A stretch of DNA of 64,000 nt, taken from the NCBI GenBank assembly GCA_016124955.1, contig WGMR01000003.1, positions 124,001 through 188,000 of the forward strand, in the 5' to 3' direction. Source of the DNA: Alphaproteobacteria bacterium. GTDB lineage: Bacteria; Pseudomonadota; Alphaproteobacteria; UBA9219; RFNS01. Below are positions 3,816 through 25,725 of this stretch, in pieces. The position numbers were made by a program, and so were the translations under genes. The notes under the pieces were generated by a model. It was not told the origin of the DNA. It searched no databases and saw nothing but the letters and a program-made list of their open reading frames with translations. Numbering within the stretch: position 1 is the stretch's first letter; the number at the start of each line of letters is the position of its first letter.

Positions 3816-4580
3816 ATGGATTTCGCCGCGCTGCTTGATGTAAACTCCCTTATTCTTGCATTCACCGGCTTTATCATAGGGATACTTGGCGTTGTCATCG
3901 GCGGCGCAATGTTTTTTGCCGTTCCGCTGATGCAATGGCTGTTTCCACTCGCTTCATTCGGTATCGTCGTCGGTAACATTAAAATGGGGTCGTTCTTCCG
4001 CAGCATCGGTTCAACGATATCCACCCATAAGCACATCGAATATGTCGATAACTTCAAGCTATCCCTTGCCGCATTTTTGGGCACGATTCTCGGCGCTTCG
4101 GCTATTGCCCAACTGGATCAGGCGTGGCTTCTGCCCGCGGTCGTTCTGGCGATTATCCTTGCCCTTCTCGCGCCAAAGCTTGCGCACAAAATCACGAACC
4201 GGACCTTCCATCTCGCCTCCCTGCTCACGGGGATATATGCGGGCTTGTTTGGCGCCGGCATCGGAGTGCTGCTTATTGCGTTGCTGCGCCTGAAACATCC
4301 ATCGGACGAAAAAATCGCGCACGTTAAAATACAGGCGCGCTTCGTTGAATGGCTGCTTGTGATCACGGCCATCGTCACCCACTTCCTGCATGGCAACCTT
4401 GTGACATCCATATGGGTGCCATGGTCAATCGGCGGATTAATCGGCGGTTATACGGGCGGCGTAATGCTCGATAAAATGGGCAAGCTTTCCGGCAAGGTAC
4501 AGAAAATTATTCTGTATGTAGCGTTCGCTTTTGCGTTCATCGTTGCCGCGTTCAAGGCTTTCGATATCGCTCTGTCATAG
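3816..4580 (+). CDS. TSUP (TauE/SafE) family inner-membrane permease
   Basis: A 254-aa very hydrophobic protein with about seven or eight membrane segments. The first segment reads ILAFTGFIIGILGVVIGG and the two halves of the protein each have a Gly-rich helix, the second being GIYAGLFGAGIGVLLIAL, as expected for the internally repeated sulfite exporter TauE/SafE family (formerly DUF81). Members move sulfite, sulfoacetate or other organic anions; the substrate here cannot be read from sequence. It begins one base after the pyrC stop, so it is probably co-transcribed with pyrBC, though a link to pyrimidine metabolism is not evident. It converges on the tRNA-Arg gene, whose 3' end lies nine bases beyond the stop codon. 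Confidence 0.8.
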   Translation: MDFAALLDVNSLILAFTGFIIGILGVVIGGAMFFAVPLMQWLFPLASFGIVVGNIKMGSFFRSIGSTISTHKHIEYVDNFKLSLAAFLGTILGASAIAQLDQAWLLPAVVLAIILALLAPKLAHKITNRTFHLASLLTGIYAGLFGAGIGVLLIALLRLKHPSDEKIAHVKIQARFVEWLLVITAIVTHFLHGNLVTSIWVPWSIGGLIGGYTGGVMLDKMGKLSGKVQKIILYVAFAFAFIVAAFKAFDIALS

Positions 4581-5070: not shown

Positions 5071-5147
5071 TGGTCGGGACGCCCGGATTCGAACCGGGGG
5101 CCTACAGTACCCAAAACTGTCGCGCTACCAGGCTGCGCTACGTCCCG
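5071..5147 (-). tRNA. tRNA-Pro (anticodon TGG)
   Basis: The reverse strand gives acceptor CGGGACG/CGTCCCG, D-arm GCGCAGCCTGGTAGCGC, anticodon stem ACAGT/ACTGT with loop TTTGGGT (anticodon TGG) and T-arm CCCGGTTCGAATCCGGG. Discriminator A; CCA encoded. It stands 23 bases upstream of the NDUFS4-like start codon. Confidence 0.97.
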
Positions 5148-19771: not shown

Positions 19772-21079
19772 CTACGCCGCACCGACATCCGACAGGAAAT
19801 CCAGCGCTTGCGCCAGATCCGTCAGAATATCATCGGCATCTTCTAGCCCGATCGAAAGCCGAAGCGTCCCCGGCCCTACGCTTACGAGCGCCTTTTCCTG
19901 CTCATTGAGCTGCCTGTGCGTCGTGGTGTCTGGGTACACGATCAGGGATCGGGTTTCTCCGATATTAGCAAGGTGGGTAAACAATTTCAGCCGCTCGATC
20001 AACTTGGCTGCAGCCGGGCGCCCGCCTTTCAGATCGGCGAGCAAGATCGCCCCGGTGCCGCGCGGCAAATATTTTGCAACGCGTTCTTTTTCCGGGCTAT
20101 CCGGCAGCCCGGCATATTTCACTGAAGCAATAGCAGGATGTTTCTGTAAATATAAGGCTACCTTCATGGCGTTGCTCACATGCCTGTCCATACGCAACGG
20201 CAAGGTTTCGATGCCCGTGATAGTCAGGAAAGCATTCATGGGCGCAAGCGCCGGGCCTTGCACGGTCAGGTTCTGGCGCAGCAAAACCGCCAGCGCCTTC
20301 TTGCCATAGGTATCGATAAGCGGCGGCGTTCCTTTTCTCGGATGCGGTTTGCCGAGCGCCGGAAAGCGATCATCCTTTGCCCAATCGAAATGACCGCTAT
20401 CGATGATAATGCCGCCGATGGAATTACCATGGCCATTCAGATATTTTGTACAGGAATGGATGACAATATCGGCCCCGTGCTTGAAGGGTTGGCACAGGTA
20501 GGGGGAAGCCATCGTGTTATCGACGATGAACGGAATATGATGCTGCTTCGCGAGTTTCGCGATCCCTTCAAAATCCGCCACAAGATTATCCGGGTTCGAA
20601 AGTGATTCCAGGAATATAGCTTTTGTTTTCGGCGAAATTTGCGCGGCGAAGCTGGCGGCATCGGCCGGGTTCGCCCATTTTACCTTAATGCCGTATTTCG
20701 TGAAAATTCCCGTGAACAGGGCATAGGAACCGCCAAACACGTTGGGCACCGCGATAAGCTCGTCGCCCGGCCCCAGCAGCGCATCAATGATCAACATGGT
20801 CGCGGACTGGCCCGAAGCCACAGCCACGGCGGCAAGCCCGCCCTCCAGCGCCGTTATGCGCTCTTCCAGAACCCGCGTGGTCGGATTCCCGCAGCGGGTG
20901 TAGTTGAACCCTTCCAAATCAGCCCAGGCAAAAAGCGCCGTCGCCTTATCGAGGTTTTCAATGGCGTATGATGCTGTTTGATATACCGGGGTCACTGCAG
21001 CCCCGGTTACGGGATCAGGGCGTGCGCCGGCGTGGATCGCCAGTGTCGAGAAGCCGGGTGCTTCTGTCTTTTTTGCCAT
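19772..21079 (-). CDS. metY: O-acetylhomoserine sulfhydrylase (OAH aminocarboxypropyltransferase)
   Basis: A PLP enzyme of the Cys/Met metabolism family; the 435-aa length and the lysine motif IHSCTKYLNGHGNSIGG fit the MetY subgroup, which makes homocysteine directly from O-acetylhomoserine and sulfide. Other landmarks are TRCGNPTTRVLEERI, ASGQSAT and SLSNPDN; the C-terminus ends with RLSIGLEDADDI. The start is strongly supported by AAGGAGGG six bases upstream. It is the last gene of the metF-metE-metB-like-metY operon, ten bases after its upstream neighbour, and so is expected to be under the SAM-II-like leader. Confidence 0.92.
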   Translation of the reverse strand: MAKKTEAPGFSTLAIHAGARPDPVTGAAVTPVYQTASYAIENLDKATALFAWADLEGFNYTRCGNPTTRVLEERITALEGGLAAVAVASGQSATMLIIDALLGPGDELIAVPNVFGGSYALFTGIFTKYGIKVKWANPADAASFAAQISPKTKAIFLESLSNPDNLVADFEGIAKLAKQHHIPFIVDNTMASPYLCQPFKHGADIVIHSCTKYLNGHGNSIGGIIIDSGHFDWAKDDRFPALGKPHPRKGTPPLIDTYGKKALAVLLRQNLTVQGPALAPMNAFLTITGIETLPLRMDRHVSNAMKVALYLQKHPAIASVKYAGLPDSPEKERVAKYLPRGTGAILLADLKGGRPAAAKLIERLKLFTHLANIGETRSLIVYPDTTTHRQLNEQEKALVSVGPGTLRLSIGLEDADDILTDLAQALDFLSDVGAA

Positions 21080-21089
21080 GGATCCCTCC

Positions 21090-22253
21090 TTATATCTTTA
21101 AAGCCTGCTCCAGATCAGCCTGCAGGTCATGAACGTCCTCAATGCCAACCGAAAGTCGTACAAGCCCCTCATCCATTCCCATTTCCTTTTGCGCAGCGGC
21201 AGGAACGACCGCGTGGCTCATGGCCGCCGGGTATTCAATCAGACTTTCGATCCCGCCAAGGCTGATAGCGAGCGTGAACAGCTTGCATTTCTTCAGCATG
21301 GCTTCAGCCGCCTTGCGGCTACCCTTCAGCTCGATTGAAATCATGCCGCCGAAATGCCGCATCTGCTTTTTGGCCAGCGCATGCTGTGGATGGCTGGCAA
21401 GGCCGGGATAGAACACGCGGCCAACTTCCGGCCTGCTTTCGAGCCAGGCTGCGAGCTTCATCGCATTTTCACAATGGCGCTGCATACGCACGCCCAGCGT
21501 TTTAAGGCCGCGATGCATCAGGAAACTATCGAACGGCCCCGCGATACTGCCGACAGCGTTCTGGATATAACCGATTTTGTCCGCAAGCTCTTGGCGGGCC
21601 GCAACGGCAACGCCGCCCACGACATCGGAATGACCGCCTATATATTTGGTGGCCGAATGCACCACAATATCCATGCCCAAATCCAGCGGCTTTTGCACCC
21701 AAGGCGAAGCGAAGGTGTTGTCAACGACCGTAAGGATATTCCGCTTCTTTGCCTGGTCTGCGATAGCGGCAAGGTCCACGATCCTTAAAAGCGGATTGCT
21801 GGGGCTTTCGACCCAGATCATCCGCGTTTCCGGCTTGATGACGGCCCCAAGCGCGGCCGGGTCGCACAGATCAGTATAGGTCACGCTAAGCTTGGCGGAA
21901 TGACGGCGTACACGCTCGAACAGGCGATGCGTGCCGCCATAAACATCTTTCGTCGTAACGATGTGCGAACCCGGCTCAAGCAGTTCAAGCACGGCGGCCT
22001 CGGCCGCCATACCGGAAGCAAAGGCAAACCCACCGGCGCCGCCCTCAAGTGCCGCTATAGCTCCCTCAAAGGCAAAACGGGTGGGATTATGGCTGCGTCC
22101 GTAATCGAAACCCTTATGGATGCCCGGGGCTTCCTGCGCGTAGGTCGAGGTTGCATATATTGGGGTTATGACGGCGCCCGTAGCCGGGTCATGCGCCTGC
22201 CGCGCATGAATGGCGCATGTATCGAAGCCGCGAACCAGATCTTCTTTTTTCAC
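21090..22253 (-). CDS. Cystathionine gamma-synthase / gamma-lyase family PLP enzyme
   Basis: A 387-aa PLP enzyme of the trans-sulfuration group. Visible signatures are YGRSHNPTRFAFE, ASGMAAEAAV, the substrate loop VYGGTHRLFERV, VESPSNPLL and the PLP lysine in VHSATKYIGGHSDVVGG. The sequence does not decide between cystathionine gamma-synthase (MetB, forward) and gamma-lyase (reverse trans-sulfuration); the methionine operon context and the presence of metY next to it favour a methionine-related role. The start codon is GTG 22253. It stands between metE (60-base gap) and metY (10-base gap). Confidence 0.85.
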   Translation of the reverse strand: MKKEDLVRGFDTCAIHARQAHDPATGAVITPIYATSTYAQEAPGIHKGFDYGRSHNPTRFAFEGAIAALEGGAGGFAFASGMAAEAAVLELLEPGSHIVTTKDVYGGTHRLFERVRRHSAKLSVTYTDLCDPAALGAVIKPETRMIWVESPSNPLLRIVDLAAIADQAKKRNILTVVDNTFASPWVQKPLDLGMDIVVHSATKYIGGHSDVVGGVAVAARQELADKIGYIQNAVGSIAGPFDSFLMHRGLKTLGVRMQRHCENAMKLAAWLESRPEVGRVFYPGLASHPQHALAKKQMRHFGGMISIELKGSRKAAEAMLKKCKLFTLAISLGGIESLIEYPAAMSHAVVPAAAQKEMGMDEGLVRLSVGIEDVHDLQADLEQALKI

Positions 22254-22313: not shown

Positions 22314-24665
22314 TCAGGCCGCCTTGTCTGCGTTCACTTTCGCTTTGCCCTTAGGCAATTTGAATTGCTCGCGCAGAACGCGGGCGGCAGTTACCATGTT
22401 TGCCAGTGCGGCCTTGGTTTCAGGCCAGCCACGGGTTTTAAGACCGCAATCCGGGTTTACCCAGATCCGCTCGACCGGCAGCAGCTTTGCCGCCTTTTCG
22501 ATCAGGTCCTTCATTTCATCGACCGATGGAACGCGCGGACTGTGGATGTCATAGACGCCAGGACCGATTTCGTTCGGATACTTGAAATCGACGAATGCGT
22601 TCAACAGTTCCATCTGCGAACGTGCGGTTTCAACCGAGATGACGTCGGCATCCATCCCGGCGATTGCCGTGATGATGTCGTTGAACTCGGAATAGCACAT
22701 ATGCGTATGGATCTGCGTATCGTCGCGCACATCCGCACCGCACAGACGGAAGCATTCCACCGCCCATTCGATGTATTCGGGCCTTTTGGCGCTTTGCAGC
22801 GGCAAGCCTTCGCGGATCGCGGGCTCGTCGATCTGGATCGCCGCAATACCCGCCTTTTCAAGGTCCAGCACCTCGTCGCAGATCGCAAGCGCAATCTGAC
22901 GGCAGGTTACCGAACGCGGCTGATCGTTACGCACGAATGACCATTGCAGAATGGTCACCGGGCCGGTCAGCATGCCCTTGACTGGTTGCGCGGTCAGGGA
23001 TTGCGCGAACTTGGTCCAGCGTACCGTCATCGGGCCCTTGCGGGTGATGTCGCCGAAAATAATCGGCGGCTTCACGCAGCGCGAACCGTAGGACTGCACC
23101 CATCCGTTGCCCGTAAAGGCAAAGCCCTGCAGCTGTTCACCGAAATATTCGACCATGTCGTTGCGCTCGAACTCGCCATGCACAAGCACATCAAGGCCCG
23201 CTTCTTCCTGCCACTTGATGGTCTGGCGGGTCTGTTCTTCAAGGAACGCATCATATTCCGCTTGCGTCTTGCGGCCTGCCCGCCAATCGGCGCGGGCGGC
23301 ACGGATTTCCTTGGTTTGCGGGAAAGAACCGATCGTGGTGGTCGGCAACCCCGGCAAATCAAGCCGCTTGGCCTGCGCCACGCGGCGCTTTTCATACGGG
23401 CTGTTGCGGTTGGCCTGCTGCGAACTGATCGCTTGAACGCGCTGCTTGACCGTAGGGTTGTGGATACGGGCGGAGCTTCGGCGCGCAGCAATGGCTTCAC
23501 GGGAAGCCGCGATCGCCTGCTCGGCTTTCGCGTCCGCACCGCTGGCCGCCTTGGCCAGCGTCGCGATTTCGTCAAGCTTCTGCGTTGCGAAAGCAAGCCA
23601 GCTTTTCAGCTCGTCATCCAGCTTGGTTTCGACAGAAAGATCGATCGGGCTATGCAACAGCGAGCAGCTTGGCGCAACCCACACGCGGTCAGCGCCAAGC
23701 GCCTTCACGGCCTTCTGCACTTGCTTAAGCGCGCCATCAAGATCGGCGCGCCAGATGTTACGGCCATCGATCACACCGACCGAAAGCACGGTCTGGGCAG
23801 GAAGCGCCTTAAGCACGGCATCAAGCTGGCCGGGGGCGCGCACCAGATCGATGTGCAACGCTTCGGTCTTCAGGCCGCAAGCCGTTTCAAGGTTCTGTTC
23901 AATCGTGTCGAAGTAGGTCGCCAGCACGATCTTCGGGCGCTTCTGAAGCGCCGTCAGCGTCGCATAGGCCTGCGACAGTGCCTTTTGCACCGCCGGGCTC
24001 TTATCGAGCGCGAGCACGGGCTCGTCGATCTGGACCCATTCGGCCCCGGCCGCCGCCAGCTTTTCAAGGATCTGGCTATAGACGGGAAGCAAGCGCGGCA
24101 GCAAAGCCAACGGATCGCTCTGATCACGGCATTTACCGACAGAAAGAAAGGTCACCGGGCCAAGCAGGACCGGGCGCGTCGTGATGCCGAGCGCCTTGGC
24201 TTCCAGGAATTCATCAACCGGCTTCGTGCTTGAAAGCGCGAACTGCTGATCGGATTCGAACGCGGGAACGATGTAGTGATAGTTGGTATCGAACCACTTG
24301 GTCATCTCAAGCGCGGGAACGTCCTTGGGGTTATCGCTCTTGTGCTGATGACCGCAGCAGCTGTCCTGATGGCCCCTGGCCATGGCAAAATAGGTGTGCA
24401 GATCGGCTTTGCCGCCGTATGCGGCCGGGATAGCGCCCGTTAACATGATTGTATCGAGCACATGGTCATACAGGGTAAAATCGTTCGAGGGAATCTGGTC
24501 GATGCCCGCATCTTTTTGCAACTTCCAGTGGCGCGCACGCAGCTCCTTGGCTGTTGCCTGAAGTTGCTCTTCGGTTTGCTTGCCGGCCCAGTACGCTTCC
24601 AGCGCTGCCTTGAGCTCACGCTTGAGACCGACGCGCGGAAAACCAAGATTCGTTGCCAAAACCAT
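22314..24665 (-). CDS. metE: Cobalamin-independent methionine synthase
   Basis: Transfers a methyl group from methyltetrahydropteroyl-glutamate to homocysteine, the last step of methionine synthesis, without B12. It is slightly longer (783 aa) than E. coli MetE (753 aa). The N-terminal half begins ATNLGFPRVGLKRELK and the catalytic C-terminal half has TTIGSFPQT, the zinc ligands His and Cys in IHTHMCYSEF and a third ligand Cys in VNPDCGLKTRGW. The folate donor is supplied by MetF, encoded 18 bases upstream. MetE is expensive and oxidation-sensitive, so the SAM-responsive leader in front of the operon makes sense. Confidence 0.97.
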   Translation of the reverse strand: MVLATNLGFPRVGLKRELKAALEAYWAGKQTEEQLQATAKELRARHWKLQKDAGIDQIPSNDFTLYDHVLDTIMLTGAIPAAYGGKADLHTYFAMARGHQDSCCGHQHKSDNPKDVPALEMTKWFDTNYHYIVPAFESDQQFALSSTKPVDEFLEAKALGITTRPVLLGPVTFLSVGKCRDQSDPLALLPRLLPVYSQILEKLAAAGAEWVQIDEPVLALDKSPAVQKALSQAYATLTALQKRPKIVLATYFDTIEQNLETACGLKTEALHIDLVRAPGQLDAVLKALPAQTVLSVGVIDGRNIWRADLDGALKQVQKAVKALGADRVWVAPSCSLLHSPIDLSVETKLDDELKSWLAFATQKLDEIATLAKAASGADAKAEQAIAASREAIAARRSSARIHNPTVKQRVQAISSQQANRNSPYEKRRVAQAKRLDLPGLPTTTIGSFPQTKEIRAARADWRAGRKTQAEYDAFLEEQTRQTIKWQEEAGLDVLVHGEFERNDMVEYFGEQLQGFAFTGNGWVQSYGSRCVKPPIIFGDITRKGPMTVRWTKFAQSLTAQPVKGMLTGPVTILQWSFVRNDQPRSVTCRQIALAICDEVLDLEKAGIAAIQIDEPAIREGLPLQSAKRPEYIEWAVECFRLCGADVRDDTQIHTHMCYSEFNDIITAIAGMDADVISVETARSQMELLNAFVDFKYPNEIGPGVYDIHSPRVPSVDEMKDLIEKAAKLLPVERIWVNPDCGLKTRGWPETKAALANMVTAARVLREQFKLPKGKAKVNADKAA

Positions 24666-24683: not shown

Positions 24684-25622
24684 TTACGGTTGTACCTGTT
24701 GCTTATCTTTATCTGGCGCGAGCTTTTCACATATCGCCGAAACCAGCTCGCTCTTGTTCAGCGCATAAAAATGAAAGTCATTCACGCCCTCACGGTCCAG
24801 CACTTCGCACAGCTCCGTAGCATGCGCGACCGATTCCCCAAACAGGGCTTTTTCATCCCCGCCATGCTTTTCAAAACGAGCCCCGAAACCGGCCGGAACA
24901 AGCGTGCCGCATCCCTTTGCAAAGCGCGTTATCTGTTCAATGTTGTGTACGGGCATGATGCCCGGCACCAGTGCGACCTTTATGCCCGCGGCCGCAACCT
25001 TATCACGGAAACGCAGGAATGTTGCAGGCTCAAAGAAAAACTGGCTGATGGCGATGATGGCGCCCGCTTCGACCTTGCGCTTCAGGTGATCAAGGTCCTG
25101 TTGGGGCGATTGGGCCATGGGATGGACATCGGGGTATGCGCCCACCGCAACATCGAAGCCGTATTTGCCGTGCAAATCCGCGACAAAATCAACCGTGTTT
25201 TCATACGCGTCCGCCGGGGCCGGATCGCCGCTCTCAACGGCATCGCCGCGAATAGCAACGATACGCTTGATGCCAAGCTTCCGGTATTCGCCGAGCACCT
25301 GTTCGATCCGGGCGCGGCTCAGCCTTGAAAAAGCAATATGCGGCGCGACGGCAAGATCAAATTTTTTGCGTATGGTGCTGACAACTTCATAAGTTCCGTC
25401 AACCGCGGAACCGCCCGCGCCGCATGTGATCGTCACATGGTGCGGGTTCCATTGCGCAAGATCGCCGATCGCCTGCAGCAGCTTTTCTGCGCCGGCTTCG
25501 GTTTTCGGGGGAAAGAATTCGAAGGAGATTCCCGTCCGCGCTTCAGGCACGCCGTTCTCCGTATAGTGGCCTGCGTCTGTTTCCGGTGCTTGGAAACGCG
25601 CAGTCGCCTGGAAAAAAGACAT
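24684..25622 (-). CDS. metF: 5,10-methylenetetrahydrofolate reductase
   Basis: A FAD-dependent TIM-barrel enzyme (312 aa) that reduces methylene-THF to methyl-THF for MetE. Landmarks are ISFEFFPPKTEAG, VTITCGAGGS, IKRIVAIRGD, ISQFFFEPATFLRF and LVPGIMPVHN. The ATG at 25622 follows a GGAG seven bases upstream that is part of a hairpin (see the terminator entry). It is the first gene of the methionine operon and the direct target of the leader riboswitch. Confidence 0.96.
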   Translation of the reverse strand: MSFFQATARFQAPETDAGHYTENGVPEARTGISFEFFPPKTEAGAEKLLQAIGDLAQWNPHHVTITCGAGGSAVDGTYEVVSTIRKKFDLAVAPHIAFSRLSRARIEQVLGEYRKLGIKRIVAIRGDAVESGDPAPADAYENTVDFVADLHGKYGFDVAVGAYPDVHPMAQSPQQDLDHLKRKVEAGAIIAISQFFFEPATFLRFRDKVAAAGIKVALVPGIMPVHNIEQITRFAKGCGTLVPAGFGARFEKHGGDEKALFGESVAHATELCEVLDREGVNDFHFYALNKSELVSAICEKLAPDKDKQQVQP

Positions 25623-25627
25623 AAAAA

Positions 25628-25662
25628 AACTCCGCAGTCCGAAACGAGGGAGCCACAGAGTT
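25628..25662 (-). terminator. Hairpin plus U7 at the metF start: terminator or ribosome-site sequestering stem
   Basis: On the minus strand AACTCTGTGG (25653-25662) pairs over ten base pairs, including G-U pairs, with CTGCGGAGTT (25628-25637) around a 15-base loop. Seven T follow (25623-25629) and then the metF ATG. The GGAG Shine-Dalgarno sits in the 3' arm. The element could act as an intrinsic terminator, as a translational block, or both; it lies directly downstream of the SAM-II-like aptamer and is its probable expression platform. Confidence 0.6.
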
Positions 25663-25669
25663 GATCTGC

Positions 25670-25725
25670 GACGCTTTAGCTATTGATAACGCGGTAGCAA
25701 GCTGCCCACTCAAAGCCCGCGAGTT
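25670..25725 (-). promoter_or_regulatory. SAM-II-like riboswitch aptamer in the metF operon leader
   Basis: The leader RNA has the layout of the SAM-II (metA-type) aptamer known from alphaproteobacterial methionine genes. A P1 stem CGCGG/CCGCG (25717-25723 with 25690-25694) encloses a loop with TTTGA and GCTTGC. It is followed by a joining strand GTTATCAAT and the conserved GCTAAAG that closes the pseudoknot. Order, spacing and conserved words agree with what I remember of the family; a covariance-model search was not possible. SAM binding should lower expression of metF-metE-metB-like-metY. SAM-V, which shares the core, is the alternative. Confidence 0.72.

Follow-up and report, generated by a model that had tools for sequence, protein, structure and literature searches.

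Several lines of evidence suggest that the SAM-II riboswitch family includes an architectural variant that is widespread and falls short of the cut-off when scored with the standard model. On the minus strand of the window, by which we mean the whole 64,000-nucleotide stretch of DNA analyzed here, the metF leader (25736-25623) is a predicted SAM-II-family aptamer located directly 5' of a metF-metE-metB-metY unit. We consider the leader to be best explained, with a probability of roughly 85%, as a riboswitch that senses SAM and acts in cis, belonging to the SAM-II family but bearing an additional helix, P3, with SAM binding being predicted from the sequence. Judged from the copies that we aligned, this P3-bearing form is a predicted element that recurs in many Alphaproteobacteria, where it precedes methionine and sulfur genes.

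The metF Leader and Its Gene Unit

The four genes follow one another in the same orientation, separated by 18, 60, and 10 bases (table 1). Profile searches give MetE 1174 bits, the MetB-like product 519 as a cystathionine gamma-synthase (cut-off 513), and the MetY product 500 as an OAH/OAS sulfhydrylase (cut-off 495). MetF scores 276 against a curated cut-off of 294, which places it below one such cut-off, and it is the single methylenetetrahydrofolate reductase (MTHFR) match (2e-74) among the 147 downstream genes scanned with Pfam. The four-gene methionine operon described in a first-pass annotation of this DNA, made from the sequence alone, is thus borne out by the profile scores, and its proposal that one putative riboswitch governs all four genes together is supported by position. 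Each of the sequence words on which that annotation relied occurs on the minus strand, and their order is the one it gave. Structure in the leader extends from about 25736, where P0 begins, to the metF start at 25622, and the originally proposed interval of 25670-25725 is too short.

The window loop is GCTTTGAGTGGGCA, in which a C at 25715 replaces the common A before TTT; across copies this base is A in 215 of 222 and C in 4 of 222. The first two bases of the P2a 3' strand overlap the extended form of P3, and 3' of this strand a stretch runs to CUGCGGAGUUUUUUUAUG, where metF starts with AUG at 25622. The alternative hairpin uses the P3 3' strand, buries the Shine-Dalgarno (SD) sequence, and is terminator-like together with the T-run. 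It is not listed by a simple terminator scan, its loop being larger than the limit of the scan. A simple promoter scan passed no candidate; there is a TTGACA at 25772-25767 but no pair that passes.

Table 1. Predicted Elements of the metF Leader and the Genes Downstream (Window Coordinates)
Feature	Positions	Strand	Basis
P0 hairpin AGTTCA-TGG-TGAACT, immediately 5' of P1	25722..25736	-	Sequence; enriched in P3-type copies; pair types vary among copies
P1 CGCGG (25721-25717) / CCGCG (25694-25690), enclosing pseudoknot loop GCUUUGAGUGGGCAGCUUGCUA	25690..25721	-	Sequence, SAM_alpha alignment, covariation
Third-strand word CUUUGA (usual AUUUGA)	25710..25715	-	Sequence; UUU role from PMC6061858
TTTGA word	25714-25710	-	Sequence
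P2a 5' strand GGGC	25704..25707	-	P2a pairing tests across copies
GCTTGC word	25702-25697	-	Sequence
P2b 5' strand CUUGC	25697..25701	-	SAM_alpha alignment; UUGC invariant in homologues
GTTATCAAT	25690-25682	-	Sequence
Linker UUAUCAAUA, nine bases, between P1 3' strand and GCUAAAG		-	Sequence
P2b 3' strand GCUAAAG, SAM pocket strand	25674..25680	-	SAM_alpha alignment; GCUAAA invariant among aligned copies (A1)
P3 hairpin GUCGCAGA-UCAAC-UCUGUGGC, between P2b and P2a	25652..25672	-	Parsing of copies, shuffle test, folding
P3 core CGCAGA/UCUGUG	25670-25665 and 25659-25654	-	Extendable to GUCGCAGA/UCUGUGGC
P2a 3' strand GCUC, partner of GGGC with one G-U pair	25650..25653	-	Class-level tests; window assignment from sequence
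Alternative hairpin AACUCUGUGG (25662-25653) / CUGCGGAGUU (25637-25628)	25628..25662	-	Folding
GGAG Shine-Dalgarno, 7 bases 5' of ATG	25630..25633	-	Sequence
Seven-T run between alternative hairpin and metF ATG	25623..25629	-	Sequence
metF, methylenetetrahydrofolate reductase	24684..25622	-	ORF and profile searches
metE, B12-independent methionine synthase	22314..24665	-	ORF and profile searches
metB-like, cystathionine gamma-synthase	21090..22253	-	ORF and profile searches
metY, O-acetylhomoserine sulfhydrylase	19772..21079	-	ORF and profile searches

Relationship to Known SAM Riboswitches

At gathering scores, an Rfam scan of the window returns tRNAs only. In a permissive cmscan against all of Rfam, RF00521 (SAM_alpha) matches the 331-base leader over its full model length at 24.6 bits (E 0.0012), below its gathering cut-off of 36 bits, and other copies score 22.8-35.8 bits. 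The SAM-II long loop model RF01726 gives 15.9 bits against a cut-off of 44, and SAM-V (RF01826) has no match in the leader up to E 10. The window scores under the SAM_alpha cut-off because its architecture differs. Its P1 closes the pseudoknot loop and shows covariation, the words UUUGA, CUUGC, and GCUAAA follow in order, and methionine genes lie downstream. The P2 loop does pair with a 3' strand, but that strand is located after P3 and not, as in SAM-II, directly after GCUAAA without an insertion. The first-pass annotation had held that its reading would fall if neither Rfam model matched above threshold and the stems did not covary; the former is what we find, whereas covariation is strong. 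Its assignment to the SAM-II family agrees with the pocket words, the subthreshold Rfam match, and the comparative data. Its suggestion of a variant is supported, mainly in a way it did not foresee, since the difference lies chiefly in P0 and the hairpin inserted between P2b and P2a, neither of which it had seen, and the loop base that it stressed is a minor, rare change. The minimum free energy (MFE) of the window leader is no better than that of shuffled sequences (z -0.23), as expected because a pseudoknot is invisible to the MFE method.

The P3-type leaders share with SAM-II (RF00521) P1, the UUU third strand, the CUUGC/GCUAAA pocket, the pseudoknot loop, and methionine genes downstream. 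They differ from it in having P3 between P2b and P2a and P0 before P1, in scoring under the cut-off, in having few U-tracts, and in a regulon that also takes in cysG, cysH, and sulfite reductase. The long loop model has the same pocket words and no P3. As originally described, SAM-II consists of P1 and P2 only (Corbino 2005; PMC1273637), and P3 is absent from it according to Huang and Lilley (PMC6061858). We found no description of an inserted P3 or P0 in the searchable main texts of openly available papers. SAM-V resembles the P3-type in its SAM pocket, in a helix named P3, and in translational control. In SAM-V, however, P3 follows the P1 3' strand and precedes the pocket strand, a place occupied in the window by only the nine bases UUAUCAAUA.

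Comparative Evidence for P3, P0, and a Displaced P2a

The 226 copies that we parsed were grouped according to their P1 and the sequence following GCUAAA, which yielded 162 P3-type copies (non-redundant), 34 of a tandem type located upstream (P1 GCGCC/GGCGC), 15 classic copies, and 13 unassigned. A hairpin starting 2-4 bases 3' of GCUAAA with a pair score of at least 6, our definition of P3, is present in 80% of P3-type copies as opposed to 7% with shuffled downstream sequence, and a P0 hairpin abutting the 5' side of P1 is present in 78% as opposed to 28%. Neither is enriched over shuffles in the classic SAM-II copies (n = 15), where the corresponding values are 20% versus 19% for P3 and 27% versus 21% for P0.

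The position of P2a, the outer helix of the pseudoknot, follows from pairing between its loop strand and the bases right after P3. At least 4 pairs form in 73% of 145 copies, compared with 38% (maximum 47%) after partner shuffling, and none of 300 partner shuffles reaches the observed mean. At the classic place there is no excess over shuffles in the P3-type (mean 2.11 vs. 2.10), whereas classic copies from the same searches average 5.9 there. The two strands change together, as in CGGAGC/GCUCCG, GAGC/GCUC, CAGGAUC/GAUCCUG, CGGAA/UUCCG, CAGA/UCUG, and UGGG/CCCA; copies with the loops UGUC, CGAACAGC, and AGAGC have no clear P2a, and counting at a fixed register is weak since the register varies. 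Across P0, P1, P2a, and P3 in 37 diverse copies, both sides change in 18 of 19 pairs (0 of 500 shuffles), a count for which the P0 and P3 strands were picked beforehand as paired, so that the unbiased tests are the P3/P0 shuffles and the P2a partner shuffles. The comparison establishes a predicted architecture comprising P0, P1, and the pocket words, with P3 directly 3' of the pocket strand and itself followed at once by the P2a strand.

Distribution and Downstream Genes

The leader core of about 60 bases is conserved at 82-88% identity in at least 10 genomes of the same order. A covariance model of this core (R1) has matches in 23 of the 33 genomes from the order and, at E <= 1e-7, in 92 of 385 genomes of the class, counts that include some classic SAM-II copies; the pocket words are invariant in 31 aligned copies. 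Nearly all of the 96 stretches recovered by a pattern scan of named genomes are alphaproteobacterial, from Rhodospirillales, Kiloniellales, Nisaea, Thalassobaculum, Rhodoplanes, Minwuia, Kordiimonadales, and MAGs named Micavibrio. For the family f2 copies in the window's order, the best Rfam model is RF01726 at 32-34 bits. In a survey of about 200 proteobacterial genomes, SAM_alpha was reported in Rhizobiales and Rhodobacterales only, with 0 of 9 Rhodospirillales (Leyn 2014; PMC4239095). Its targets there were metY, metA, metX, metC, hom, and metW (PMC4239095).

The genes downstream of the P3-type are mostly those of methionine synthesis and sulfate assimilation. By Pfam, the first genes after 147 P3-type copies include 27 Cys/Met PLP enzymes (metZ/metY), 20 CysG, 9 ABC transporters (judged by eye to be MetN-like), 8 PAPS/APS reductases, 5 MetA, 4 OsmC, 4 ALAD, 2 sulfite reductases, 2 rhodaneses, and single cases of MetE, MetF, NlpA, and homocysteine methyltransferase. 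An early idea that copies in the window's order precede unrelated genes was partly dropped, as sulfur genes dominate across the class. It is also countered by metA following two of the small ORFs of unknown family (L012, L045), which leaves several cases in the order outside this account.

With RF00521, the genome that contains the window has three places: the window itself, a copy ahead of its only MetA gene, and a copy on contig C7. The C7 copy, at 318317-318375 (-) (L057), precedes a protein of about 300 aa without a Pfam match, and a similar protein lies 3' of a P3-type copy in L245; this family of unknown proteins may belong to the SAM regulon. In another genome of the same family (G002; L037, L068), a classic SAM-II that scores 38.1 bits, over the cut-off, precedes metE, with a metF match about 3 kb further on, and a separate copy elsewhere matches R1 at 68 bits. 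Classic and P3-type forms thus seem exchangeable ahead of the same genes in this case.

Predicted Ligand and Proposed Switching Mechanism

In SAM-II and SAM-V, SAM is held by the UUU, the UU of CUUGC, and CUAAA (PMC6061858). These bases are unchanged here, which makes SAM the expected ligand, predicted to bind in the P2b triplex as in those classes. A five-T run occurs within 110 bases in 29 of 162 P3-type copies, 29 of 34 tandem-upstream copies, and 13 of 15 classic copies, and the expression platforms of the P3-type appear to be mostly of the ribosome-site kind. Complementarity between the SD region and the P3 3' strand (score of at least 6) occurs in 46% of 39 close-start leaders, against 7% of shuffles; therefore the P3 3' strand is common to P3 and to an SD-sequestering helix. 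In the window, the terminator hairpin (about -16 to -17 kcal/mol) is an alternative to P3 (-11.0 kcal/mol), with P3 forming first in the growing transcript and the later hairpin being the more stable.

P3 is likely to be the helix that switches, given that its 3' strand has the SD region as a second possible partner and that, in the window, this alternative pairing with the SD-containing arm is followed by seven T before metF. Without SAM, the 8-pair P3 would form first and keep the shared arm occupied. With SAM, a stabilized P2a could take GC (25653-25652) from the foot of P3, reducing it from 8 to 6 pairs, and the terminator/SD hairpin could then win over the weakened P3 and turn the operon off. 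Based on the gene content, we infer that high SAM probably turns the metF-metE-metB-metY operon off.

Alternative Explanations

The opposite polarity, in which SAM locks P2b-P3-P2a, keeps the terminator/SD hairpin from using the P3 3' strand, and so favors expression, seems to us rather unlikely. P3 and the sequestering hairpin are indeed mutually exclusive, and P3 is compatible with the ligand-bound pseudoknot, which on a literal reading points to SAM-ON rather than SAM-OFF. In the window, the terminator hairpin is also the more stable of the two when no ligand is present. Against this, the downstream genes make methionine and reduced sulfur, and a genetic OFF switch has been proposed for SAM-II (PMC1273637). 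The ligand-free ensembles, in which about half of the leaders favor P3 and half the SD pairing, do not fix the default state. A change of ligand to SAH or another SAM relative would have a precedent in the SAM aptamer variants that switched to spermidine (PMC10853860), and the window carries the rare C before UUU; given that the pocket bases are those of SAM-II and that the gene contexts are methionine and cysteine rather than SAH recycling, we regard it as quite improbable.

The architecture itself could be read otherwise. An ordinary SAM-II, with P2a right after GCUAAAG and P3 as an incidental hairpin of the expression platform, would account for the alignment of the whole Rfam model and for the 3-pair GGC/GCC at the classic place in copies with a GGGC loop. 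The partner-shuffle covariation test nevertheless led us to reject a classic-position P2a in the P3-type, as the loop covaries with the bases after P3 and not with those at the classic place, where true classic copies pair well, and this reading is improbable. Highly improbable is an intermediate between SAM-II and SAM-V, which the first-pass annotation had offered with regard to SAM-V. The two forms share a helix named P3, and SAM-V also acts on translation (PMC6061858). Their P3 insertions nonetheless sit at different positions in the chain, that of the window coming after the pocket strand, and the leader has neither a SAM-V match nor a hairpin between P1 and GCUAAA; in addition, SAM-II is without P3 (PMC6061858). 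Finally, a score under the Rfam gathering threshold and the lack of an MFE excess would be consistent with a chance resemblance and no regulatory RNA, which is scarcely credible given the conservation and covariation in more than 100 copies ahead of sulfur genes.

Implications

Having favored a P3-bearing, SAM-sensing member of the SAM-II family, we propose only tentatively, at somewhat under even odds, that the P3-type forms a SAM riboswitch subclass of its own, one not described before. Such a subclass would be sorted apart from SAM-II by covariance models, would carry its expression platform on an inserted helix inside the pseudoknot, and would control both methionine synthesis and the assimilation of sulfate in orders of Alphaproteobacteria believed to be without SAM-II. 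The P3-type provides candidate riboswitches in several alphaproteobacterial groups, Rhodospirillales-like ones among them, and adds genes for siroheme, APS/PAPS reductase, and sulfite reductase to the regulon. It suggests a route by which a small pseudoknot aptamer takes a switching helix into its own core, a test case for the evolution of expression platforms, and a revised covariance model would gain many members lost at the present cut-off.

Tandem Copies and Neighboring Open Reading Frames

Terminator-type SAM-II-like aptamers (P1 GCGCC/GGCGC) lie 73-125 bases upstream of a P3-type copy in 26 of 34 such (B-type) copies, at loci including L130, L184, L182, L300, and about 22 others. The passages that we found of a 2022 survey describe 44 tandem SAM-II, in some of which a terminator precedes a platform of the ribosome-site kind (PMC9481103). 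This is the same arrangement, and the reported tandems probably overlap with ours. Those passages mention no inserted P3 or P0, and the window copy is single. At L145, two near-identical P3-type leaders (3844-3892 and 5083-5131) lie 1.2 kb apart, apparently ahead of PAPS-reductase and CysG genes. Two contigs from MAGs labelled Actinomycetota and Coriobacteriia are among the pattern-scan matches listed and carry P3-type copies (L110, 3339-3386 and 7177-7224; L180, 1556-1603), for which transfer or misbinning is possible.

Several small proteins recur behind P3-type leaders. One family of small ORFs with a motif like VARAIVDNxxG lies right behind the leader in L012, L045, L006, L007, and L096, in two cases just before metA; the L096 member is without a Pfam match. 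Glutamate-cysteine ligase was considered as the identity of another downstream family (L131, L153) and dropped for want of Pfam backing. A protein of about 75 aa (containing GLALRERGGFRFFAADPRFRLLDGSRFRRL), for which the one member scanned has no Pfam match, is the first gene after many P3-type copies, among them L242, L243, L244, L249, and L264.
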